Positions 10,320 to 32,899 of a stretch of 32,995 bases of DNA are shown here, piece after piece (within the stretch, counting starts at the first letter, position 1; each line of letters opens with the position of its first letter). The notes beneath the pieces were generated by a model. The model did not search any database. It was not told the DNA's origin and saw only the letters and a program-made list of their open reading frames with translations. Both the position numbers and the translations under genes were made by a program. The stretch is from a virus, in the IMG/VR virus record IMGVR_UViG_3300021087_000556, positions 1-32,995 of that record; one strand, given 5' to 3'.

Positions 10320-11413
10320 AATTTAAATCCTTCGAATGTGTCGTCTCTAACATCTTGTTTAATACCACCAATGACGTACGACTCAATCTCTGTCTCTTGT
10401 GGTGCATTCTGTAATCCTCTACTGTTGAACCAGTGTGTAGTCCAAGGCAATGGATTGTTAGTCGAACTTCTGTCATATATAGGGTTCAGTCCGATTGCAC
10501 GGAGTCTCTTGTTTGCAATGAACTCAACGTAGTATCCAAGTAAGTGTGTGGATAAACCAATCATTGAACCATGTTTGAATAAGAAAGTGGCCCAATCTTT
10601 TTCTTGTTTAACTGCATCTTCATACATTTCATAAACTTCTTTTTCACAATCTTTCATGACCTTTAACATGACTTTATCTTTCTCATGGTTCTGATAACAC
10701 TTCAATATGTGTTGTGTAATTGCAAGGTGTTGTGCTTCATCTCTTGCAATCAATGATATGATTTTTGCACTCCCTTCCATAAGTTTCGCTTCCCCGAATG
10801 CGAATGAACACGCAAAAGAAACGAAGAATCTGATACCTTCTAAGATGTTAACTGATACTAGTGCAAGGTAAAGTGCCTTATATAAATCGTAATCGTCAAT
10901 TTTATGACCCATTTGTTTACGTCTTCCTATATCAATAAACTCATCATATTTTTGTGTAACCGATTCTGCACGAGTGATAATTGCTGGTTCGTCAAGTATA
11001 GTGTCAAAGACATCACTAGGGTCTGAATAAATGTTCTTAATGATATGAGTGTAACTCCTTGAGTGGATTGTCTCCATAAAGTCCCATGTGATTATACATG
11101 ATTCTAATTCAGGGATTGTTACGAATGGTAGGAATGCGATTGCAGGAGCACGTCCTTGAACACTATCGAGTAGTGTTTGGTATCTTAGGTTTGATGTAAA
11201 AATGTGTTTTTGTGCTTCTGTTAGTGTTTGATAATCACTTCTATCTTTCTGTAAAGACACCTCTTCGGGTCTCCAAAAGAATCCCAACTGTCTCTGCGTG
11301 AGTTTATCAAATATAGGATACTTGAACTCGTCAAATCGTTGTGTGTTTAATTCTTCTCCAAAAAAGATTTTCTCTTTTGTAAAATCTACTTTCTTTTTAT
11401 TAAATACCGTCAT
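10316..11413 (-). CDS. nrdB: ribonucleoside-diphosphate reductase class Ia, beta subunit
   Basis: A 365-residue protein. All residues of the diiron-tyrosyl radical site are visible by alignment to the E. coli pattern: D83 (LLDS), E114, H117 and radical Y121 (ETIHSRSY), E192 (LEGI), E226 and H229 (DEAQH). It makes the radical that NrdA uses to reduce ribonucleotides. It overlaps the fused oxygenase-methyltransferase gene upstream and glutaredoxin downstream by ATGA. Unusually, nrdA is not adjacent: the 580-residue fusion separates them. Confidence 0.95.
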   Translation of the reverse strand: MTVFNKKKVDFTKEKIFFGEELNTQRFDEFKYPIFDKLTQRQLGFFWRPEEVSLQKDRSDYQTLTEAQKHIFTSNLRYQTLLDSVQGRAPAIAFLPFVTIPELESCIITWDFMETIHSRSYTHIIKNIYSDPSDVFDTILDEPAIITRAESVTQKYDEFIDIGRRKQMGHKIDDYDLYKALYLALVSVNILEGIRFFVSFACSFAFGEAKLMEGSAKIISLIARDEAQHLAITQHILKCYQNHEKDKVMLKVMKDCEKEVYEMYEDAVKQEKDWATFLFKHGSMIGLSTHLLGYYVEFIANKRLRAIGLNPIYDRSSTNNPLPWTTHWFNSRGLQNAPQETEIESYVIGGIKQDVRDDTFEGFKL

Positions 11414-13152
11414 GTTTCCTCACCTTGTCTTAATCCCCAATGAGAAATAGGTAAATGATTTGATAATACATGATTGTTATCGAAAGATAATTTCCAACCA
11501 AGATAGTTTTCTACTTTATGATGTTTCAAATCTCTAATATGTCCTTCCCATATAATTTTTTTATCTTTTATTTTATTTTTGTATATACTATTGTGCATAA
11601 GATTACCATAGTAATCTTCTAAAAACTTTTTAGAGTATTTAGAATGAGAAGGTATATCTATATCTGCCCATTCTGTTATAGATTCTCCGTCTATATCTGA
11701 TAACTCTACCATGTTGGGATATAACTTATCTATAAAATCATTCTTCTTTGCATACTCTACTAAATCTAGTATGTGGCCAACTTCTAACTCCTTATCTCCT
11801 TCTTGATAAAATCTTCTAAGAAATCTTTTCTCATTCCAAAATTCTGATGTTAACCATTCGTGTAAATATATGTCACATTTAGGTAATTCTGTTTCAAGTA
11901 AATCACCATGAATATACTCTACACTATCTCCTAGAGTCTCTTTCATTCTATCGATAAGTTCACCCCTTCTTTCTAATGCATATACTTTCTTTGCACCATA
12001 CTTGACTGCAAGGTAACATAATATGCCTGAACCTGCACCTAAATCTATAACTACTTTGTCTTTAACATTCTTTGAAATCCAATCTTCATATGATTTGTTT
12101 CTCTGAGAATCAGTAAAACAATATGCAGTTTTAAAGAATCCTAATGATTCATTATCTTTTAGATATAATTTTTTCTCTCTTTCCGATAACTCTACATCTT
12201 CAATGTGGGAATAATTATTGATAAACTCTTCAGGGTTAAACCAATCGTGCATTCCCTGACTCCACTCATTCCAAAATTTCATTGCTTCAGTAAAATAGGG
12301 TTGTTGGTCTTTACTTGCGTGGTAACGACTTAGTCTACCATCATATGCAAAAGTACTCGTTGTTCTGTGGTCACTACTTCCTTGATTCTTTACACCATAG
12401 TGATCTGTAGTAAACTTATCAAGGGTCGTTATTCTACCATTATGATTAACAAAATGTAAAAACATATGGTAAGAGTAATCTCCTAAGAAGGTATCTCTCC
12501 AATGTGGTGCATTAGGGCCTTGATAAAGTAACACATCACCAACTTCTAGTGATACTGGTGTTCCTGTTCTTTCGTGGTGTGGGATATTCTGCATTTCTTC
12601 AAAGAATTTATCTTGACCATTACCTCGTGCAAGATTAACATAATTTTTATCACTTTGTACCCAAATCTTCCAAGGCGTATTATCGTCTGACTTATACTTA
12701 AGACAAATTGTTGCACTGACTTCGCATGAAGGTCGGTCACTATGTGCTTTTAGATATGCACCTCTATCATATTTTCTTGAGTATGAATAAGTCTCCACTA
12801 AGTCCATATCAATAACGTTAGCTAGATTATCTCTTAACCATCTATGTAATGCAACTGCAGGTGGGAAGGTATGACAACCCTGACTTTTTTCTAGGGATTC
12901 TTTAGGTGAATCATGAATAATATCATGTTCTCTTTCAAAAATTGTATCATTCCACTCTTGATTATGTTCTATGGTCTTCCAATTATCCATAGTCATATCA
13001 ATGATTACTTTAGGAATAAAGTTTCTTAGAATAACATAACCCTGAGTCTGAAACTCTCTAGTTAATTCGTTCGTCCAACCTGTTACTGGTTTTGGGTCAT
13101 CGCCGTCAAACTGTTTTGTTTTGAAAGTTTTATCTTCATATCGCACAGGCAT
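11410..13152 (-). CDS. 2OG-Fe(II) oxygenase fused to a PRMT-like methyltransferase
   Basis: A 580-residue fusion. Residues about 30-240 resemble a 2OG oxygenase: H137-x-D139 in LKAHSDRPS, a downstream SLEVGDVLLYQGP strand and distal H217 in APHWRD. The 2OG-binding basic residue is not obvious. Residues about 340-580 resemble protein arginine methyltransferases: VIDLGAGSGILCYLAVKYGA (motif I), E394 ending the next strand, HEWLTSEFWNE like the double-E loop, and HWG near the C-terminus like the THW loop. It lies between nrdA (12-base gap) and nrdB (4-base overlap). Parts of the methyltransferase half are very AT-rich, unlike nrdA. Substrate unknown; a protein target is plausible. Confidence 0.74.
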   Translation of the reverse strand: MPVRYEDKTFKTKQFDGDDPKPVTGWTNELTREFQTQGYVILRNFIPKVIIDMTMDNWKTIEHNQEWNDTIFEREHDIIHDSPKESLEKSQGCHTFPPAVALHRWLRDNLANVIDMDLVETYSYSRKYDRGAYLKAHSDRPSCEVSATICLKYKSDDNTPWKIWVQSDKNYVNLARGNGQDKFFEEMQNIPHHERTGTPVSLEVGDVLLYQGPNAPHWRDTFLGDYSYHMFLHFVNHNGRITTLDKFTTDHYGVKNQGSSDHRTTSTFAYDGRLSRYHASKDQQPYFTEAMKFWNEWSQGMHDWFNPEEFINNYSHIEDVELSEREKKLYLKDNESLGFFKTAYCFTDSQRNKSYEDWISKNVKDKVVIDLGAGSGILCYLAVKYGAKKVYALERRGELIDRMKETLGDSVEYIHGDLLETELPKCDIYLHEWLTSEFWNEKRFLRRFYQEGDKELEVGHILDLVEYAKKNDFIDKLYPNMVELSDIDGESITEWADIDIPSHSKYSKKFLEDYYGNLMHNSIYKNKIKDKKIIWEGHIRDLKHHKVENYLGWKLSFDNNHVLSNHLPISHWGLRQGEET

Positions 13153-18835: not shown

Positions 18836-18912
18836 TGGAGCTCCGAGAGGGAATCGAACCCCCGACATCTTCATTACAAGTGAAGCGCTCTGGCCTGCTG
18901 AGCTATCGGAGC
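18836..18912 (-). tRNA. tRNA-Thr (anticodon UGU)
   Basis: A complete 77-base cloverleaf: acceptor GCTCCGA/TCGGAGC (perfect), D stem GCTC/GAGC, anticodon stem CTTCA/TGAAG with loop CTTGTAA, T arm GGGGG-TTCGATT-CCCTC. The discriminator is U and CCA is encoded. Anticodon TGT reads Thr codons ending in A, and by wobble others. Confidence 0.96.
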
Positions 18913-19308: not shown

Positions 19309-19331
19309 CTAAAAGTATTTAGTACTTTTAG
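19309..19331 (-). other. perfect 9-bp hairpin with late-box-like loop
   Basis: CTAAAAGTA and TACTTTTAG form a 9-bp perfect stem with the 5-base loop CTAAA, so the loop and arm include CTAAATA. The hairpin spans the stop codon of the 19328-19726 gene. All-AT arms with few following U argue against a classic terminator. Confidence 0.5.
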
Positions 19332-19726
19332 ATAGAGCCGTATACTTTAAAAGAACCTGTTTCTAATTTCTCCACTCTAAGGTTTAGTGTAACGACTTCT
19401 GTTTTTTCATCAAATTCGTCATGTGGAGTGTCTACGGATTTACCGAATTGGTCTCCATATCTTTTCATACTAACTTGATAATCACCCGATTCAGTAATTT
19501 CAGGGTGTTTATCAAGTGCGAGACCAAGTTGTCCTAGTTTTGCATCGATTTGACCGACAGCAGCACTAGGATTTAAAAATTCACTAACTGCACAATGTCC
19601 AAGAATGGCATTAATTCTTGATTTGACTTCAGGGTCGTTTATGTCATGGGGAACGTGTTGACTTTCTAAACCACCTACTTGTGTATGTGAATGAGTTTCT
19701 GCTATAAATTCTGCAAATTTTTTCAT
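19328..19726 (-). CDS. 132-residue protein with a T4-like capsid-targeting leader
   Basis: The N-terminus MKKFAEFIAE-THSH is very close to the T4 internal-protein capsid-targeting sequence MKTYQEFIAE, which directs proteins into the prohead and is cut after the Glu by the gp21 protease. The rest contains FGKSVDTPHDEFDE and a beta-rich C-terminus LNLRVEKLETGSFKVYGSI. This suggests an internal head protein; the enzymatic role, if any, is unknown. It follows two small virion-like genes. The leader match is seen directly; packaging is inference. Confidence 0.74.
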   Translation of the reverse strand: MKKFAEFIAETHSHTQVGGLESQHVPHDINDPEVKSRINAILGHCAVSEFLNPSAAVGQIDAKLGQLGLALDKHPEITESGDYQVSMKRYGDQFGKSVDTPHDEFDEKTEVVTLNLRVEKLETGSFKVYGSI

Positions 19727-19730
19727 GTTA

Positions 19731-19994
19731 TTATCCTATTATTCCAACTTTCACTGCAAGTACTTCTGCGTGAGCAGCGAATACTTCGTCTGTTGGGTTT
19801 TTTGAAATTATTTCTGTACCACCACCAGCAAGTGTAAATGTTCCGATTAGAGCATTCGCACTTGTTTCTACTGATACCAATCTTGCAGTTGTTCCACTAT
19901 TGTGAACTCTCACTGCAGTTGAAGTACCAAAGTTTGAACCGTTAGTTGTGCTCGTAGCACAAGCTGCTTCTGTTCCTAGTACATTTAATTTCAT
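19731..19994 (-). CDS. 87-residue small virion-like protein
   Basis: A Thr/Ser/Ala/Gly-rich beta protein (MKLNVLGTEAACATSTTNG; TFTLAGGGTEIISKNPTDEVFA). The pattern is typical of small structural proteins of T4-like marine phages. TAAGGTAGG precedes the ATG. It lies 11 bases after the Ig-like gene at 20006-20572. No specific name can be given. Confidence 0.72.
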   Translation of the reverse strand: MKLNVLGTEAACATSTTNGSNFGTSTAVRVHNSGTTARLVSVETSANALIGTFTLAGGGTEIISKNPTDEVFAAHAEVLAVKVGIIG

Positions 19995-20005
19995 TTTAAC
20001 CTACC

Positions 20006-20572
20006 TTATGCAACAACTGTCAATGTTCCAGCAGAAGTTCCGATACCAGCAACAGAAGTAATGGTTGCGTTACCACCACCAACTGTATCTACTATTGTTG
20101 AACCACCTGCGTGAGCGACAGCATTTGCACCAAAACTTAACACATCATCTGCATTTGTAGCGGCGTTTGCAGCTGCAATTGCTAATGTGAAGGTGAGTTG
20201 GTTAGTTGTTGAACCTGATGCGTATACAAGAACGTGTGGGCCTCTGCCTGAACCTGAACCCTGATTACCGTTAGTTACGGATAATGTAGGTGAACCTGTT
20301 ACTGTTACGTTTTCGTTATAACTTACAGTTGCAGAAAGTGTAAATCCAGCAGATTTATCTGCTGTTGTTGTTACCCAATCTATCGCCGTAATGTCTGCCT
20401 GTCCAATACTTGTTGCAAGACCGTTAGCTGCGACTAAAACTTCCTCTAGGGTTCTTGCCCCTACAGTTTTTCTTAGCACCCAACCAGCTGCCGTAGCAAA
20501 TGTATTTGATTTGTCTGTTGCTGATAACCACTTAGGTTTTGATTCATCAGCGTCTGATACTCCCCATAATGC
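20006..20572 (-). CDS. 188-residue virion protein, Ig-like repeat type
   Basis: The start at 20572 (MALWGVSDADESKPKWLSA) is chosen because GAGAGGAAAAT precedes it; an upstream in-frame ATG at 20605 overlaps the preceding gene. MALWGVSDADESKPKW resembles the start of structural proteins in T4-like marine phages. The remainder is Thr/Ser/Ala/Gly-rich with alternating strands, like an Ig-type or fibre/decoration fold. The exact location in the virion is unknown. Confidence 0.76.
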   Translation of the reverse strand, partial: ALWGVSDADESKPKWLSATDKSNTFATAAGWVLRKTVGARTLEEVLVAANGLATSIGQADITAIDWVTTTADKSAGFTLSATVSYNENVTVTGSPTLSVTNGNQGSGSGRGPHVLVYASGSTTNQLTFTLAIAAANAATNADDVLSFGANAVAHAGGSTIVDTVGGGNATITSVAGIGTSAGTLTVVA

Positions 20573-20588
20573 CATTTTATTTTCCTCT

Positions 20589-21137
20589 CTATTGTTTATT
20601 GGCAAATTTTAGTATGCCATTAAAATTGGTTTTGAAAGACCTAATGTCTTTCTGTAATAATATAAGGTATTTAGACCGTTCAGGTGTCTTAAGTCGCATC
20701 AAAATGTCGTGAACTTTCTCTGCATCCTTCCACTTAACCTTCATCTTCTTCATGTCGTCTGTTCTAATGTCTTGGTCTCTCTTAGTATCAATCAACTTTT
20801 TGAGTTGCATTAAAACATTCGCATCGGGTCTATGTTGCATTCCTGATGCTTCTGAACCCATTGCCCAAATCGCTCTTTGGATAACTTCATCTTCACCAGC
20901 CTCTGCGTACTTACCTTTTGCCATTGAGGATATTTTATCCAACATGGCTCTCAATTCTTTTTCGTTTTTTGCTTTCGCAACGGCACGTGCAACCTTTTGA
21001 TTACCTGCATCGGACATCATTCCGAAGTCTGCAACCTTTTCCATGACTTGTGCGACTTTCTTCGCCTCTCCCTTCATGTAACCTAACTTTTTAATCTTCT
21101 CCTTAAAAGTTCGGTATCTAGCGTCTATTCTGTCCAT
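20589..21137 (-). CDS. 182-residue basic helical protein
   Basis: Rich in Lys, Met and Ala (FKEKIKKLGYMKGEAKKVAQ). Predicted all-helical. It overlaps the stop of the upstream gene (TAATG). It is the last gene of a run of charged proteins (22276-20589) in the inferred head-interior block. No family is recognised; a DNA-associated head protein is one possibility. Confidence 0.68.
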   Translation of the reverse strand: MDRIDARYRTFKEKIKKLGYMKGEAKKVAQVMEKVADFGMMSDAGNQKVARAVAKAKNEKELRAMLDKISSMAKGKYAEAGEDEVIQRAIWAMGSEASGMQHRPDANVLMQLKKLIDTKRDQDIRTDDMKKMKVKWKDAEKVHDILMRLKTPERSKYLILLQKDIRSFKTNFNGILKFANKQ

Positions 21138-21451
21138 TAGAATGACTTATATATTTCGTCATAGTTGGAATATTGACTTTTAGCTTTCGATAACATAGCG
21201 TCCAAAAGACCTTTTCTGATATTTACCATATCAGTCGTCATATGACCTTCCACTTTGTGCATTTGAGATAATAATTCCATCATTTTCTTGGCACTTTTTT
21301 CATTCATTATTTTAGCTAAATGTAAAACACTACCATTATGGTCATTTCTATCTGTCATTTTTTCTAACTTAACAATTTCTGATTGTGGTATCTCTTTCTT
21401 CTCATTAAGAGAATCTTCCCACATTGCACGAATAGTATCAAACTGATTCAT
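21137..21451 (-). CDS. 104-residue helical hypothetical protein
   Basis: The start at 21451 comes one base after the upstream stop. An alternative ATG at 21478 would overlap by 26 bases. The product begins MNQFDTIRAMWEDSLNEKKE and is helical and Met-rich. No family is recognised. It belongs to the same tightly packed run of charged proteins. Confidence 0.64.
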   Translation of the reverse strand: MNQFDTIRAMWEDSLNEKKEIPQSEIVKLEKMTDRNDHNGSVLHLAKIMNEKSAKKMMELLSQMHKVEGHMTTDMVNIRKGLLDAMLSKAKSQYSNYDEIYKSF

Positions 21452-21452
21452 A

Positions 21453-21947
21453 CTAAGCTTTTCTTCTGAAATCGACATCTTTAGGTTCTCTAATTCTCAA
21501 TTTCTTTAGAGTATCTTCAATTGCCTTTACAGTTTTATTTTGGTCTTTGATATTAGTAATGAACAAACTTGTATCTCCGTCTTCCATTGTAGAAAAACCA
21601 ACCTTTTTTTCAATTTTCTCTAGTTCTTTCTTTAACTTTGTATAGTTAGATGGTTTCAAATCCATCAATACGATTTCTTCGTTTACTTCAGATTTTTTTT
21701 TTGCTTCTTCTTCAGTTTCTTCTTTCTTACCGTCTTTACCTTTTTCGGATTCACCATTCCAATTTGCATCGATGTAATCAAAGAATTCCTTCTTCTTTTC
21801 ACCGTCTAATTCTTCAGGAGACGTGACGTTAAATTTCTTCAATACTGAATCAAAGAATTTTTTGTATTCTGCAGATGACTCGATAACTTTTTTAGACGCT
21901 TCTAATAGGTCGTCTGACAACCCTAGTTGAAATCCTGTAAAACTCAT
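21453..21947 (-). CDS. 164-residue charged protein, probable head-associated
   Basis: An N-terminal helical domain (SDDLLEASKKVIESSAEYKK; EFFDYIDANWNG) is joined by a low-complexity Lys/Glu linker (about residues 75-92) to a small alpha/beta domain. LLEA and VNEE look like prohead-protease-type sites. The KKKEFFDYIDANW segment is typical of proteins in T4-like marine phage structural regions. It overlaps the upstream gene by four bases. Confidence 0.68.
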   Translation of the reverse strand: MSFTGFQLGLSDDLLEASKKVIESSAEYKKFFDSVLKKFNVTSPEELDGEKKKEFFDYIDANWNGESEKGKDGKKEETEEEAKKKSEVNEEIVLMDLKPSNYTKLKKELEKIEKKVGFSTMEDGDTSLFITNIKDQNKTVKAIEDTLKKLRIREPKDVDFRRKA

Positions 21948-22276
21948 TGTTCTAACTCTCCTGATTCGAAATAATCGAATAATTTTTGTTTGTTTTCTTC
22001 GTTAAGAGACATTGATTTCGCAAGTCTACCTAACATATTTTTCTCTGTTAACTTATCAACAGAATGAGATTCTTCATCTGATTCTTCAACAACCTCTTCA
22101 ACAGGAGCTTCTTCAGTTACTTCCTCTGAAGGTTCTTCCATTTCATTAAGAAGAGCATCAATCTCTTCATTGATTAACTCCTCTTCAGTCTTTTCTACAA
22201 CAGGTTCGTTTGCCTCTTTCAGACCTTCTCGAACCCTTAAAAGAGCCTCTTTCCAGTTTTCTGTTTTTAGTGTCAT
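21944..22276 (-). CDS. 110-residue very acidic protein
   Basis: After MTLKTENWKEALLRVREGLK comes a Glu-rich, probably disordered centre and a helical end KNMLGRLAKSMSLNEENKQK. LKEA near residue 20 fits the (I/L)-x-E-A pattern. CATAAATA lies five bases before the ATG and no ribosome-binding sequence is seen. Acidic internal proteins are common in T4-type proheads; here that is inference. Confidence 0.66.
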   Translation of the reverse strand: MTLKTENWKEALLRVREGLKEANEPVVEKTEEELINEEIDALLNEMEEPSEEVTEEAPVEEVVEESDEESHSVDKLTEKNMLGRLAKSMSLNEENKQKLFDYFESGELEQ

Positions 22277-22281
22277 ATCTT

Positions 22282-22289
22282 TATTTATG
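22282..22289 (-). promoter_or_regulatory. late box CATAAATA 5 bases before a start codon
   Basis: CATAAATA-AAGAT-ATG. It overlaps the stop codon of the upstream gene. The T4 late start site normally lies 5-7 bases after this box, which would put it at the ATG. Confidence 0.5.
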
Positions 22290-22536
22290 TTAATTGGATT
22301 CTAACCACCAATTCATCTACTCCCCTTTCTAGGTTTCCTTTCATTCGGTATTCTTTACCCAGTTCTAATTCAATTGGCATATAACCTCGTTCTCTCATAC
22401 ACCACCCATTACCACTTAGAATATGCATGGTAGTTTTCATACCATTTTTTAATTCCAAAGGCACCGAATCAGTAAATGTCCTGATTAAGTATTTAATTCC
22501 TGTCCCATGTTGTTCCGTAAGAACATCTTTGGTCAT
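22285..22536 (-). CDS. 83-residue hypothetical protein
   Basis: A beta-rich small protein (GIKYLIRTFTDSVPLELKNG; GNGWCMRERGYMPIELELG). GGGAAGG lies just before the ATG. It separates the acidic gene from the 775-residue gene. No family is recognised. Confidence 0.7.
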   Translation of the reverse strand: MTKDVLTEQHGTGIKYLIRTFTDSVPLELKNGMKTTMHILSGNGWCMRERGYMPIELELGKEYRMKGNLERGVDELVVRIQLT

Positions 22537-22557
22537 TAACCTTCCCTATATTTAGTA

Positions 22558-24885
22558 CTAACTTTTAATAGATTTTATGAAGTCTCTTTTACCTGCTTTG
22601 TACATTTGCACAACACCACTATGGTCTGTTATCATGTACATTGACTGGATTGCTTCTAATTCTTTTGGTTTTAACCCTTTAATCTCTTTATTCCAGTAGT
22701 TCGCAATGTTCTTGTTAACTCCTTTCTTCTGAGGTATATATTGGTCGCCTTCAAGCTTTATATCACCTGCAATTGGTGAGTTTTCTTTGAACATGAATCC
22801 TACTTCAGGAACCTTTTGTTCTGTTCCATAGTTTGCATAGTTAAGTGCTTTTACAACGTCCTTATTCTTTGAGAGACCTTTCTTCATCTTCTCAATACCT
22901 TTGATTGCGTAGGTCATTGCGCCGCCATGGTCGAGTGCGAACTCAACTGCTTTTCTTACTTGTTTATCTCTGACCTTATGTCTTCGGAAGTATACTGAAA
23001 TTTCTTGTCCAGTAAGTTTAGAACCGTCCATTTTACCTTCTTTGATACCCAACTCTTTCATTTTTGCTTTAATGATAGGTCTTGCATCACCTTTTGGATT
23101 TTTCTGACCTGCTTTATATAAGTCATCAAACAAACCATCATCACCAATAAGGTCATACAGTTTGTCAGAGGCATCATCACCGTCTTTACCTAAGACAACT
23201 GGTTTCTTCAACAAGTCTTTTAATTCTTTCTTTTGTTTAGAAGTCTTTGGTAATGCCCATGTTCCTTCACTAATTGATTCACCGTCATGTTCAACATGAG
23301 CATAATCAACTCCAGGCTTTCCGTATTTCTTCTTAATCTTTTCTACTTTTTTGGCTAAAGGATTAAGACCTAAATCTTCATCTGATTCAATACCTACAGA
23401 AAAACCACTCTTACCACCTCTGAATTTTTCTTGGTCTATCGTAACATTTTTTGTTACACTTTTGATATATGGGTCTTTAAGGAAATTGTCTAAAGATTTC
23501 TTATTATAGAATACAAATCCCCAATTACTCTCACTAATTGATTCTTTGATTTTACCTTTCATTATATCGTCTAAATCTCTGTCTAACCAATCAATAAAAT
23601 CATCAGGGTCATCGGTGTTAACTTCACCATTATCCATTGCCCATTGCATTAAGTCGGCTTCTAATTTTTTGGATAGTTCTAGATTACCACTTCTTTGTAC
23701 TTTCTGAAGTTCTCTTTTGTGTTTACGAACGATGTCTTTCATCTTCATAGACCTTTCGTTTAAAGTTTCTTCTTTAACACCCATTACTTTATGTGCAATG
23801 TGTACTAGAGTTTGAATGTTTGATTTCTCCATTTTACCTTTGTTTTGGTCGTTTACTTTATCGTAAACTGTTAAAATCATAGATGCAGTGAACATATCTA
23901 ACATGATTCCACCAACTTTTGTTGCAGATTTAGTATCCACAATCTTTTTGATATCTGGCATTAAGTCTTTTGCTTCAAGTAATGAATCATAGTTTCTAAG
24001 AATTTCTTCACCCATTTTCATAGGTTTCTTCTTTTGACTGTAGTAATCTTTAAGAAATTCTTTTGCTTGTGCAATTGAAACTGGATAGTCTCTTGCGATT
24101 TCTTTTGCTGTCGCACCATTTTGAATGTCTTGGAATAGTTCACCCATTTTACCTTCTTCGAGGTCGTCATTGATTGATTCTGTAATACCAAGTTTTTTCA
24201 TCTCTTTTTCAATCTCTTTGTTGATTGATTTAAGAGCATTTAATGAAGGATTTGCAACCCCTGACTTGTTTTGAGCTTTGTCAATTGCTTGCATCTCTTT
24301 TGCTTTCTTCATTAGTAAGTCTGAGTATTTTGCATACTTACCTTCTTCTATTTCAACAGACTCACCCAGTACTTTAATTCCTTTACTCTTAAATTTTTTC
24401 AGAACTTCAAGACCAACTTTACCAGCATCATCACCTTGTATATACATATCTCCGTCCGACCAACTACTCATTCCACTACCTGTTATTTGGTCAGCATCAA
24501 TGTCTTCTATATCTAGTCTATCAGATACATCTTTGGTAAAATTAAAGATAGCATATGCATCCTTTTTCTTTATATTTCTAACAACAACATCATAATGATT
24601 CTTTTTTACAGGTTTATAGTTAGGTCTGCTTGCTTCTGATACAGTTTCTTCTAGGGGTTTAACGAAGTTATCGTCAAGTTCTTCATTGTAAGGGAAACCT
24701 TTAAGGGGATTTTGGAATACCTGCATGAAAGACTTTTTCTGTTTGTCTTTCTTCTCTTCAATCACTTCTTTGATACCTGCAAGATACTTCTCTACACTTT
24801 GGTTAGGTGTATCCTCTTGGTATGCCTTCAAAGTTTCAGGAGTTCCAACTTCGTGGACTCCATTATTGTGTTTATTTCCTGCCAT
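22558..24885 (-). CDS. 775-residue multi-segment virion-region protein with repeated protease-type sites
   Basis: The start at 24885 (MAGNKHNNGVHEVGTPETLK) is chosen because AAAAAAGGGGATAAT precedes it and the upstream gene ends at 24890. The protein is a string of small Lys/Glu-rich domains. Their joints carry (I/L/V)-x-E-(G/A/S): VSEA 82-85, IEEG 179-182, LEEG 242-245, LLEA 302-305, ISES 450-453, ISEG 538-541 and IKEG 614-617. T4 gp21 prohead protease cuts at such sequences. No enzyme domain is recognised. It may be a head-interior polyprotein cut into about eight pieces; processing is inferred. Confidence 0.74.
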   Translation of the reverse strand: MAGNKHNNGVHEVGTPETLKAYQEDTPNQSVEKYLAGIKEVIEEKKDKQKKSFMQVFQNPLKGFPYNEELDDNFVKPLEETVSEASRPNYKPVKKNHYDVVVRNIKKKDAYAIFNFTKDVSDRLDIEDIDADQITGSGMSSWSDGDMYIQGDDAGKVGLEVLKKFKSKGIKVLGESVEIEEGKYAKYSDLLMKKAKEMQAIDKAQNKSGVANPSLNALKSINKEIEKEMKKLGITESINDDLEEGKMGELFQDIQNGATAKEIARDYPVSIAQAKEFLKDYYSQKKKPMKMGEEILRNYDSLLEAKDLMPDIKKIVDTKSATKVGGIMLDMFTASMILTVYDKVNDQNKGKMEKSNIQTLVHIAHKVMGVKEETLNERSMKMKDIVRKHKRELQKVQRSGNLELSKKLEADLMQWAMDNGEVNTDDPDDFIDWLDRDLDDIMKGKIKESISESNWGFVFYNKKSLDNFLKDPYIKSVTKNVTIDQEKFRGGKSGFSVGIESDEDLGLNPLAKKVEKIKKKYGKPGVDYAHVEHDGESISEGTWALPKTSKQKKELKDLLKKPVVLGKDGDDASDKLYDLIGDDGLFDDLYKAGQKNPKGDARPIIKAKMKELGIKEGKMDGSKLTGQEISVYFRRHKVRDKQVRKAVEFALDHGGAMTYAIKGIEKMKKGLSKNKDVVKALNYANYGTEQKVPEVGFMFKENSPIAGDIKLEGDQYIPQKKGVNKNIANYWNKEIKGLKPKELEAIQSMYMITDHSGVVQMYKAGKRDFIKSIKS

Positions 24886-24889
24886 TTTA

Positions 24890-25783
24890 TTATCCCCTTT
24901 TTTGATTTGCATAATAGGCTGCAACTGCCATTTTTTTAATTTCTTCTGCACTTTGGTTTTTAAACTGAGGTGCATCTGAACTTTTGAAATCGTTTATAAA
25001 ATCTTTTATCGATGCGTTTTTACTTAACTTCTCTCTAAGTCTAGGTTCTGTTCTGTTATACTTCTGAGATACAACCGATAAATTACCCTTGTCATTATTT
25101 AATGGATTATTGTCCTTATGATGAACATCTTTCTTATCAAAAGGTTTTACCTTTCCTTCTTTTTCTAATGCTCTTCTTGCTCTTTTACGAGCTGCATTTT
25201 TTTCCATTTGTTCTGGCCTAGAATGATAGTTTGCTCTTTCTTTAGCATAGTTCCTACCTTCTTCTATATCATCACCAAACTTAAGGAACAACTTTCCTTT
25301 TTCTTGTTTCTTATCTGTAATCTTCGCACCAACAAATGACCCTAAAGTATTTAACATACCAAGACCTTTCTCTTGGTTCCTTGTAATCTCTTTACCAACT
25401 TGGTTATTAATCTTTTTCATAACCGTATCAATGATGTGTTGGATGTCTGAGACTAATTTACCTTCTTCAACAGACTCATTTGCAGATTGTTTCTCTGATG
25501 CTTTTCTTTCTGCATCACGTTTCTTTTTAATTGCAGTATCTACAGTTTCTTTCTCTTTTGCGCCTGCAAGTCTTTCATTTTCTCTATCATGTTCATCTTG
25601 AAGTGCTTCGACTTCTTGTTCATGTTTCGCTTTAAGTCTTTCCATTTCCTCAACTTGTTTCGCTTTTGCAAGTGCAGTCTGCACTGCAACGTTGTCTTCT
25701 TCTGCAAATAAAGACTTAAAGTTCTCTACTTTATCATCACGAGAACCTTTTTGTGCGTTAAGTATTTGGTTTAAAATATCCAT
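24890..25783 (-). CDS. coiled-coil protein with C-terminal HNH nuclease-like domain
   Basis: A 297-residue protein. Residues 1-100 form a charged coiled coil. VEEG (105-108) and IEEG (173-176) flank a middle segment. The C-terminal part has HSRPEQ and then DVHHKDNNPLNNDKGNLSVV (219-238), the His-His/Asn/Asn pattern of HNH endonucleases. Similar HNH segments occur in T4-like marine phage proteins. The HNH part starts just after the second protease-type site, so cleavage would free it. CATAAATA lies six bases before the ATG. Confidence 0.72.
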   Translation of the reverse strand: MDILNQILNAQKGSRDDKVENFKSLFAEEDNVAVQTALAKAKQVEEMERLKAKHEQEVEALQDEHDRENERLAGAKEKETVDTAIKKKRDAERKASEKQSANESVEEGKLVSDIQHIIDTVMKKINNQVGKEITRNQEKGLGMLNTLGSFVGAKITDKKQEKGKLFLKFGDDIEEGRNYAKERANYHSRPEQMEKNAARKRARRALEKEGKVKPFDKKDVHHKDNNPLNNDKGNLSVVSQKYNRTEPRLREKLSKNASIKDFINDFKSSDAPQFKNQSAEEIKKMAVAAYYANQKRG

Positions 25784-25788
25784 ATAAT

Positions 25789-27090
25789 CTATTTATGCTT
25801 TTTAGCAATTAACTCCTGTTCTTTCCATGCGAGAGCAACCTTATTAGTGGGGAATTTAGTACACCAAGTCATCATTGCACCATATAACTTAGACGCTTTA
25901 CCCTGTAATGATTGAACAGTATCGTCATTAACGATTTCTATAAAGTCCTTTTTAAATATTCTCTTGAATATATCTGCATTTTTCTCTACTGCCTCATGTT
26001 CTTTCACTAGAATCTCAGGTGGTAGTGTTCTTGCTCTCATTGAATTGAGTCGTTGTGCAAGGTCTAGACTTGTTTTAACAAATACCATTTTATACTCATA
26101 TCCTAATGCATCTAGATTCTTCTTATACCCCTGAATCTTACCTGCTTTTGCACTTGTAGTGTCAAAGATTAATCCCAGTCTTGCAGGAACATGGATATCC
26201 ATTTGTTTGGTTGCAATACCTTTTGCCTTTGCACGAAGTTTATCTCTTTCGGGGTTGACTGTTCCACTACCAGTCTTAGTCATTTTCATAGACATTTTTG
26301 CATCTTTCATAAGTCGTTCAAAGTGAGTGTCACTATTGATTGTTTTAAGTCCTAGTGCCTTAAGTGAGAGTGCATCAACCACTGTTGATTTACCTGAACC
26401 TGGCCCACCCATTAAGAAAACTGCTTTGAATATGCCTGGGTCGTAAACACCTTCTTGTAATAGGTCTTCAAACATATAGTTAGGCATTGTTTCTTCTTTA
26501 ATACCCATACCACTTCTAACTTCTTTGTATAGTAGTTCTTGGTCTCTCAAGTTATTAGATGCAACACCTGTTTTAAATGATTCAAAGTCACCCTCTTCTG
26601 CGGCTGCTCTCATTTTACTTGCAGACATTCCTGATACTCCTTCTGCATCAGGGTCTCTTTGACCTGCACTAATAATCTCTATTGAATCAAATTTATAATA
26701 CCCGTGTCTTCCTTTAGAACCATTGTATTTTTTGATAAGAGTTTCAAACTCTCTGACTCGGTCTGAACCTGCAACCATACGAAATTCTCTATACCCTTGA
26801 TTGTATAATTCTGTAACTATTTCAAAAATTGTTCTTGCAGGTGTTTTTACAATTCCCACCTTTTTACCAAAGAATTTTTTCATCCATTTTTGTTTTGTAT
26901 TATAGTCTAATGGATTTGATTTTTTATCATTTGAGTGAGACATAAACACTAGAGGTTTAAAACCACCACCTGTTGCCTTAACAACTTTCTCTACCAATGC
27001 ACCATGTCCAATAGTAGGTGGATTAAATCGACCAAAGGCTATTACTACCTTTTGGGTTGAACTTTCATTAAATTTTCTAAACGTTTTCAT
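25789..27090 (-). CDS. cytidylyltransferase-like (NMNAT-type) domain fused to a P-loop kinase
   Basis: A 433-residue fusion. Residues about 13-180 are a nucleotidyltransferase of the cytidylyltransferase/NMN adenylyltransferase fold: GRFNPPTIGHG (20-30) for HxGH and MSASKMR (155-161) for the ISSTxxR motif. Residues about 220-430 are a P-loop kinase-like domain with GGPGSGKS (228-235). The order recalls NadR, so NAD synthesis is one possibility. LLQEG (210-214) sits exactly between the domains. The N-terminus MKTFRKFNES resembles the T4 capsid-targeting leader. It overlaps the upstream gene by 14 bases. Confidence 0.8.
   Translation of the reverse strand: MKTFRKFNESSTQKVVIAFGRFNPPTIGHGALVEKVVKATGGGFKPLVFMSHSNDKKSNPLDYNTKQKWMKKFFGKKVGIVKTPARTIFEIVTELYNQGYREFRMVAGSDRVREFETLIKKYNGSKGRHGYYKFDSIEIISAGQRDPDAEGVSGMSASKMRAAAEEGDFESFKTGVASNNLRDQELLYKEVRSGMGIKEETMPNYMFEDLLQEGVYDPGIFKAVFLMGGPGSGKSTVVDALSLKALGLKTINSDTHFERLMKDAKMSMKMTKTGSGTVNPERDKLRAKAKGIATKQMDIHVPARLGLIFDTTSAKAGKIQGYKKNLDALGYEYKMVFVKTSLDLAQRLNSMRARTLPPEILVKEHEAVEKNADIFKRIFKKDFIEIVNDDTVQSLQGKASKLYGAMMTWCTKFPTNKVALAWKEQELIAKKHK
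25790..25797 (-). promoter_or_regulatory. late box CATAAATA 6 bases before the HNH-protein start
   Basis: CATAAATA-GATTAT-ATG, overlapping the stop codon (TAG) of the fusion gene. No ribosome-binding sequence intervenes. It has the same layout as at 22282, 32478 and 32968. Confidence 0.5.
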
Positions 27091-27271
27091 CTTGTTTCAT
27101 TATCCTAAACTTTAATAGTGGTCTACCATTAATTGTAATATCCCCTTTCTCATTTTTCTCTATTGTTTTAACAACCATTTTTTTGTTTTTAAACTTACCA
27201 CCAAGAACTACATCACCTATACTAATAGGAATGTGAATAGTTTCTGTCATATGTTCCTTAAATGATTTCAT
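27077..27271 (-). CDS. 64-residue protein with capsid-targeting-like leader and small beta barrel
   Basis: MKSFKEHMTE-TIHI is similar in spacing and residues to the T4 leader MKTYQEFIAE. After it, IGDVVLGGKFKNKKMVVKTI looks like a KOW/SH3-like barrel. GGAGCATT precedes the ATG. It overlaps both neighbours. A head-interior or nucleic-acid-associated role is inferred. Confidence 0.7.
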   Translation of the reverse strand: MKSFKEHMTETIHIPISIGDVVLGGKFKNKKMVVKTIEKNEKGDITINGRPLLKFRIMKQDENV

Positions 27272-28594: not shown

Positions 28595-28623
28595 AGAATA
28601 CCATACTATTTATACATTTGCAA
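28595..28623 (-). promoter_or_regulatory. sigma70-type promoter of the ligase-like gene
   Basis: TTGCAA, a 17-base spacer and TATTCT. The spacer contains the late box at 28607-28614, so the gene could be read both early and late. It directly follows the terminator at 28635-28659. Confidence 0.5.
28607..28614 (-). promoter_or_regulatory. T4 late promoter box TATAAATA
   Basis: An exact TATAAATA on the minus strand, about 44 bases before the ATG at 28562, within the intergenic space between the terminator and the ligase-like gene. Confidence 0.6.
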
Positions 28624-32476: not shown

Positions 32477-32899
32477 TTATTTATACTGGTTATGCTTTCT
32501 ATGAGAAGTTTTTTCGTCATAATCAATCATCGCTTTCTGAATTGCATCTTCAGCTAATACACTACAGTGTAATTTGATTGGTGGTAAGTCTAGTGCATCT
32601 GCAATATCCTTATCTTTGATAAGTTTTGCTTCGTCTATTGTCTTACCCATCATCATATCTACGAACATTGATGAACTTGCGATTGCACTTCCACAACCAT
32701 AAGTCTTAAACTTTACGTCAATGATTTTTTCATCGTCATTTAATAATAATTGTAGTTGCATTACATCACCACAAGCTGGAGCGCCTGCGAGTCCTGTTGC
32801 AACATGAGGATTATCTCTGTCGAGAGAACCAACTGAGTGTTTTTTCGGGTCATTGAGTACTGATTCAAATCGTTGTACTACTTCTTTACTATATGCCAT
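32477..32899 (-). CDS. iscU: IscU-type iron-sulfur cluster scaffold protein
   Basis: A 140-residue protein with the full cluster-assembly set: C43-G-D45, C69 (TYGCGSAIASSS), H111 and C112. LPPIKLHCS (105-113) contains the LPPxK motif bound by the HscA chaperone in bacterial IscU. It would be an auxiliary metabolic gene acting in the host Isc pathway. It starts right after the 20-residue membrane peptide (TAA followed by ATG). There are no signs of damage. Confidence 0.92.
   Translation of the reverse strand: MAYSKEVVQRFESVLNDPKKHSVGSLDRDNPHVATGLAGAPACGDVMQLQLLLNDDEKIIDVKFKTYGCGSAIASSSMFVDMMMGKTIDEAKLIKDKDIADALDLPPIKLHCSVLAEDAIQKAMIDYDEKTSHRKHNQYK
32478..32485 (-). promoter_or_regulatory. late box TATAAATA 5 bases before the nuclease start
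   Basis: An exact TATAAATA followed by ATTTC and ATG, overlapping the end of iscU. There is no ribosome-binding sequence. Confidence 0.55.

Follow-up and report, generated by a model that had tools for sequence, protein, structure and literature searches.

The window analysed here, the whole 32,995 nucleotides of a 33-kb virus contig (IMG/VR record IMGVR_UViG_3300021087_000556), encodes three proteins of 132, 433 and 64 residues that begin with leaders resembling the capsid-targeting sequence of the internal head proteins of phage T4 (Table 1). There is good support for packaging of the bearers through a T4-type capsid-targeting sequence. The sequences predict that the leader is removed after its glutamate, and the cargo may act in the new host. 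The explanation as a whole, which joins T4-type leaders, docking on the core, a gp21-type cut and delivery with the DNA, is very probably right.

Late in infection, the leader of 9-10 residues would dock its cargo onto the scaffolding core of the prohead. The activated gp21-type prohead protease would then cut after the leader glutamate and free the mature protein inside the head, where DNA would be packaged around it, and the cargo would enter the next cell together with that DNA. A further cut, at LLQE↓G, would probably separate the nucleotidyltransferase domain of the 433-residue enzyme from its kinase domain.

Table 1. Leader-bearing genes, predicted cut sites and further candidates in the window (↓ marks the position after the glutamate)
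Feature	Positions	Strand	Remarks
132-residue leader protein	19328..19726	-	MKKFAEFIAE↓THSHTQ
Leader 1, MKKFAEFIAE	19697..19726	-	predicted cut E10↓T11
433-residue enzyme	25789..27090	-	MKTFRKFNE↓SSTQKV
Leader 2, MKTFRKFNE	27064..27090	-	predicted cut E9↓S10
64-residue small leader protein	27077..27271	-	MKSFKEHMTE↓TIHIPI
Leader 3, MKSFKEHMTE	27242..27271	-	predicted cut E10↓T11
Predicted second protease site, LLQE213↓G214	26449..26463	-	interdomain linker of the 433-residue enzyme
805-residue string of small modules	22558..24975	-	no leader; weaker member
83-residue protein	22285..22536	-	minimal leader-like start MTKDVLTE↓QHGTG; uncertain member
Late-promoter-like site, TATAAATA	28607..28614	-	upstream of the gene run 28580 -> 27271 -> 27090

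Leader-bearing genes of the window

A sequence-only reading of the window had named three open reading frames with these starts, and all three lie at exactly the coordinates it gave, on the minus strand, the start of the 433-residue gene overlapping the end of the 64-residue gene by 14 nt. It had also compared their leaders with MKTYQEFIAE of T4. That string stands in the T4 genome record at the starts of IPII (MKTYQEFIAE↓AR, MKTYQEFIAEAR) and IPIII (MKTYQEFIAE↓AS, MKTYQEFIAEAS), and IPI begins MKTFKEFTSTTTPVSTITE↓A (MKTFKEFTSTTTPVSTITEA). Leader 1 has the core MK-x-(F/Y)-x-x-F-(I/L)-x-E in full, and leaders 2 and 3 have it with N or H/M substitutions. The regular expression M[KRQTNS]x[FLYI]xx[FWYHML][LIMFVN]x?E matches 3 of 103 N-terminal methionine positions in the window (51 open reading frames) and 0 of 237 internal methionines, the three leaders being its only matches. 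With the background rate taken from the internal methionines of 125 related contigs (5/7056), 0.07 matches are expected in place of the three observed (Poisson P(≥3) ~6e-5), which bears out the resemblance. The 125 related contigs hold 96 leader open reading frames against 1.9 expected.

The three proteins do not resemble one another. Only the 433-residue protein has a recognised domain; the 132- and 64-residue proteins have no Pfam or PHROG match, and no likeness of these two to T4 IPI-III was found beyond the leader.

Leaders recur among the homologues of all three proteins, and alignments of two of the families show M1, K2, F4 and the glutamate to be invariant or nearly so. At 56-84% identity, the 24 homologues of the 433-residue enzyme all keep E9, and M1, K2 and F4 are each kept in at least 90%. 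Among 20 homologues of the 132-residue protein, down to 31% identity, M1, K2, F4 and E10 are all invariant, and the 19 alignment columns after the leader average 56% gaps and form a gap-rich linker; the orthologues include HTVC008M gp139 (MKSFKDFQNVNE) and Melnitz_27 (MKNFKNHIAE). All 8 members of the 64-residue family carry a leader, and residues 10-56 of this protein are homologous to part of HTVC008M gp128. Typical homologue leaders are MKTFNNFISE↓A, MKSFNKFLTE↓A, MKKFKDFLDE↓S and MKTFKNFLNE↓D. In the AlphaFold model of the 433-residue enzyme, residues 1-10 are disordered and the first strand begins at residue 13; in the model of the 132-residue protein, which is of lower confidence, the leader forms a short helix that runs into a disordered linker. 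The predicted fold of the 132-residue protein also matches part of a 1134-residue phage protein annotated as the anti-CBASS protein Acb1 (BFVD, E 9e-4), a match that hints at an association with counter-defence.

The 433-residue enzyme consists of the leader, a nucleotidyltransferase of PPAT/NMNAT fold (residues 12-198) and a P-loop kinase (residues 218-412), with the domains CTP_transf_like and AAA_33 and the PHROG annotation cytidyltransferase. Fold matches place the N-terminal half with PPAT/NMNAT (Z about 14) and the C-terminal half with O-phosphoseryl-tRNA (PSTK) and polynucleotide kinases (Z about 15); a PDB sequence search with the nucleotidyltransferase alignment returned nothing at E ≤ 0.01. 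The presence of nucleotidyltransferase and P-loop kinase in one chain is a NadR-like architecture, and NadR (6gye_A) is among the fold matches across both domains, with a low TM-score. Identity as NadR proper was rejected, the TIGR01526 score being 19.7 bits against a cut-off of 341. Because this score is far under the cut-off and the domains match best to PPAT and to polynucleotide/PSTK kinases, the substrate may be NAD, CoA or another compound. The modelled folds are most consistent with nucleotide-cofactor metabolism of the NAD or CoA type, and such cargo possibly serves counter-defence.

Leaders across phages and in published virion proteomes

IMG/VR was scanned with the DNA pattern ATGAAAN3TTTN6TTTNTN4GAA, the control being the same pattern with the F and E codons swapped. 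The scan gave at least 119 stretches; its counts are among the matches listed, in a sample that the fixed codons bias and whose contigs are not independent; repeated modules may be what holds the largest groups together. The pattern lies at the start of an open reading frame of at least 45 codons in 112 of 119 stretches, against 30 of 120 in the control. Stripped of their first 11 residues, these 112 proteins form at least 51 groups without a BLASTP link. The claim that leaders of this kind sit on unrelated proteins, made for the three dissimilar proteins of the window, thus extends to a large set. Pfam names among the bearers include adenylate kinase, RimK ATP-grasp, DnaJ, SET, HAD phosphatase, HNH, CTP_transf_like, AAA_33/zeta and DUF6267. 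At the residue after the glutamate (P1′), 34 of the proteins have Ala and 23 have Ser (together 57/112), as in T4 IPII and IPIII, and T4-type hallmark genes occur on 98 of the 119 contigs, against 29 of 120 controls.

In S-CREM2 a published virion proteome associates the leader with the particle. Mass spectrometry of S-CREM2 virions detected 52 proteins (PMC10665884, table 3). With a first regular expression, set from T4 and the window, 5 of 8 leader proteins are among those detected, compared with 21 of the 176 remaining non-canonical proteins (p = 0.0016; over all proteins, p = 0.02). By annotation, the S-CREM2 bearers are a SAM hydrolase (MKDFDSFLEE), an APH-like kinase (MKRFDAFLTE), a small neighbour (MKDLHSFLTE), gp136 (MQTFSMFFSE), a cytidylyltransferase (MKNFSSFLTE↓A) and a protein annotated Cas9 (RFASFMAE↓A). 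The last, the virion protein gp12 (L008, 7704-10313; annotated Cas9/Csn1), has its leader internally, near residues 18-25, and its Cas9 annotation is not confirmed by PHROG. The cytidylyltransferase S-SZBM1_140, with the leader MRFRQFIIE↓A, was detected in S-SZBM1 virions (PMC9146016), and the T4-GC190 cytidylyltransferase, which starts MKKFSAFLNE↓A, in those of S-SM1 (PMC3037559). Published mass spectrometry therefore places a leader-bearing homologue of the 433-residue enzyme in the virions of all three phages. The authors of the S-CREM2 study considered contamination possible (PMC10665884); a leader common to the cargo argues for specific loading instead.

Predicted proteolytic sites and alternative explanations

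A gp21 homologue, 59-62% identical to that of HTVC008M, is present in four near-complete leader-carrying relatives (114-151 kb). The N-termini of the major capsid proteins read LSE↓AAP or LEE↓AAP at residue 52 in these four relatives, FLSE↓AAP in Melnitz and LLTE↓AP in S-CREM2, and these propeptide sites resemble cargo leaders that end FLSE↓A or FLTE↓A. In S-CREM2, enrichment in [LIVF]xE↓[AGS] is highest in gp21 and gp22, two proteins that the protease cuts in T4. This enrichment was rejected as a marker for S-CREM2 virion proteins in general: it picks out gp21, gp22 and a single non-virion protein, with p = 0.18, so it was not used as a test.

These sites bear on an alternative that is unlikely yet deserves to be weighed, namely that the leaders target the prohead and then stay on, or are removed from only some cargo, the glutamate being part of a docking helix and not a protease site. 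The variable P1′ of the 132-residue family (T, G, S, Q, D or N) would suit a leader that is never removed, as would the giant phages, in which not all packaged proteins are processed (PMC5694885). Such a leader does not account for a glutamate that never changes and is positioned where a linker or folded domain begins, for a P1′ of Ala or Ser in the nucleotidyltransferase family, or for a leader site that resembles the propeptide site of the major capsid protein.

The target itself could lie elsewhere if the leader were a signal for assembly of the tail, of the baseplate or of some complex formed inside the infected cell, and virion mass spectrometry does not separate head from tail. This is improbable. 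In relatives, a gene of about 100 codons between portal and protease (L390, L391, L392, L393), with no Pfam or PHROG match, starts MKTFASISKELNE↓AK, MKTFSSISNELRE↓AK or MAKTWDQITTILNE↓AK, which puts leader-like starts inside the head operon. Furthermore, the leader is nearly equal to the T4 head-targeting sequence, and the recognised bearers are enzymes, not tail parts.

That the shared N-termini have no role in the protein and only result from gene shuffling or from the context of translation starts is very improbable. In favour of this explanation, recombination at gene starts is plausible. The explanation conflicts with M, K, F and E being invariant at the protein level while codons vary synonymously (TTT/TTC at the F, GAA/GAG at the E), with the freedom of positions 5, 6 and 9, and with the association between leader and virion detection; an artefact of start context was rejected on the codon check. 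Chance resemblance, which so short a motif might invite, is refuted by the window probability and the related-contig counts given above and hardly merits consideration.

Loading of a set of unrelated proteins into the capsid, as the sequence-only reading proposed, is thus the explanation supported by leader conservation, by the at least 51 groups on mostly T4-type contigs, by enrichment in S-CREM2 virions and homologues in the virions of three phages, by capsid-like sites and by gp21 in relatives. Several observations weigh against it. Head genes are missing from the 33-kb fragment that makes up the window, and the phage's own gp21 is therefore not seen. P1′ is Thr in two of its three leaders, and Thr is infrequent in the IMG/VR scan (6/112 among the matches listed). 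Two homologues of the 433-residue enzyme have no leader and open straight with the enzyme domain, which marks the leader as a separable module. In HTVC008M the leaders are degenerate: gp139 begins MKSFKDFQNVNE, the nucleotidyltransferase begins MKTLKELLRKKVG, without the glutamate, and a scan of its open reading frames with the leader expression gave no match. The looser pattern that raises the S-CREM2 result to 6 of 8, against 20 of 176 other non-canonical proteins (p = 1e-4), was chosen after the S-CREM2 N-termini had been seen. Finally, the shallow S-SZBM1 proteome gives no replication (loose pattern 1/2 detected, p = 0.23; strict 0/3, p = 1), and two small leader proteins were not detected in those virions (PMC9146016).

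A second cut is predicted within the 433-residue enzyme. E213↓G214 is the sole other invariant [LIVMF]xE↓[AGS] site in the 24 homologues, where it takes the form (L/I/V)xE↓G, and it adjoins the interdomain linker (residues 200-211, pLDDT < 50). In HTVC008M the kinase is a separate open reading frame that starts MIPFILKE↓GLYDPG, and in L136 the kinase domain stands alone behind a full leader, MKRFSFFLQE. The fused enzyme is probably split at LLQE↓G within the head.

Gene neighbourhood and known systems

The genes of the window run uvsX, gp41, DUF6267, small protein, nucleotidyltransferase/kinase, modular proteins, primase, nrdA and nrdB, with the leader genes between gp41 and primase. The order is that of two phages whose records place them in Kyanoviridae, HTVC008M of Pelagibacter and Melnitz of Methylophilales. 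The leader genes had been described as belonging to one late block. The part of this that stands is strand and position: the window has six HATAAATA sites, which resemble T4 late promoters, all on the coding strand and five of the six 13-40 nt upstream of genes, as fits late transcription. Their number lends nothing to it, since six sites against 10 expected is below the chance mean. A tRNA-Thr(tgt) gene (18836-18912) adjoins the block; a tRNA-Ala(tgc) gene lies at 2734-2809. Elsewhere, the window encodes a 580-residue protein with a C-terminal methyltransferase domain (11410-13152), between nrdA and nrdB, and a NifU/IscU-type iron-sulfur scaffold (32477-32899; PF01592, E 2e-38).

Two neighbouring genes are weaker candidates. 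The 805-residue protein has 10 [LIVF]xE↓[AGS] sites where shuffled sequences give 2.6 (p < 0.001); the sites lie at linkers that include IEEGK, LEEGK, ISESN and ISEGT, and the protein may be an internal polyprotein cut by the protease; this reading is less sure because the excess is weaker in its homologues (p ≤ 0.05 in 13/40). Homologues of the 83-residue protein start MEKYLKDILTE↓QHGTG and MTNPYTEKVLE↓QHGTG.

A broader proposal is favoured with some reserve: that one portable tag, MK(S/T)FxxF(I/L)xE↓A, serves marine and freshwater T4-type phages in injecting a large enzyme repertoire as infection begins, with fused cargo split by the same protease in the head. The repertoire would take in nucleotidyltransferase-kinases, adenylate kinase, RimK ligase, DnaJ, SET, HAD and HNH proteins and many unnamed ones. 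If so, the injected effectors of uncultured phages would be predictable from sequence alone, the 10-residue pattern being a predictor of phage proteins delivered with the DNA. For uncultured ocean phages, most of whose late genes are nameless, the leader points to candidate effectors of the first minutes of infection, including nucleotide-cofactor enzymes that could counter NAD-depleting defences.

The mechanism is already known from T4; that it would extend to ocean phages of the Kyanoviridae type, and with so large a set of cargo, is new as far as the openly accessible literature shows. In that literature, no paper links the T4 leader to cyanophages or pelagiphages and none contains the exact leader strings. 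The leaders share with the capsid-targeting sequence of T4 IPI, IPII and IPIII (Mullaney and Black 1996) their length, the MK.(F/Y)..F(I/L).E core, use as a module on proteins otherwise unrelated, a glutamate followed by Ala or Ser in many homologues and, in relatives, a T4-type head operon with gp21. They differ in belonging to marine Kyanoviridae-like phages and not Straboviridae, in having Phe for Tyr at position 4 and Thr at P1′ in two of the three window leaders, and in their bearers, which have no detected similarity to the T4 internal proteins and include multi-domain enzymes. T4 Alt, a packaged and injected ADP-ribosyltransferase, is likewise a head-carried enzyme delivered with DNA; here the enzymes are a nucleotidyltransferase-kinase and others. 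In the giant phages phiKZ and SPN3US, a homologous protease cuts propeptides after Glu (sites SxE / AxE); in contrast to the leaders described here, those propeptides often exceed 100 residues, and the available text of PMC5694885 shows no MKxF leader among them.

Further parallels are the NMNAT-like or cytidylyltransferase proteins reported in virions of S-SM1, S-CREM2, S-SCSM1, S-SZBM1 and S-CBWM1. These are homologues of the 433-residue enzyme, and the leader was checked in S-SM1, S-CREM2 and S-SZBM1. The papers that describe virion enzymes in cyanophages give no loading mechanism, and one considered contamination, which several that found metabolic enzymes in virions could not exclude. The conserved leader supplies a mechanism by which these enzymes would be loaded.

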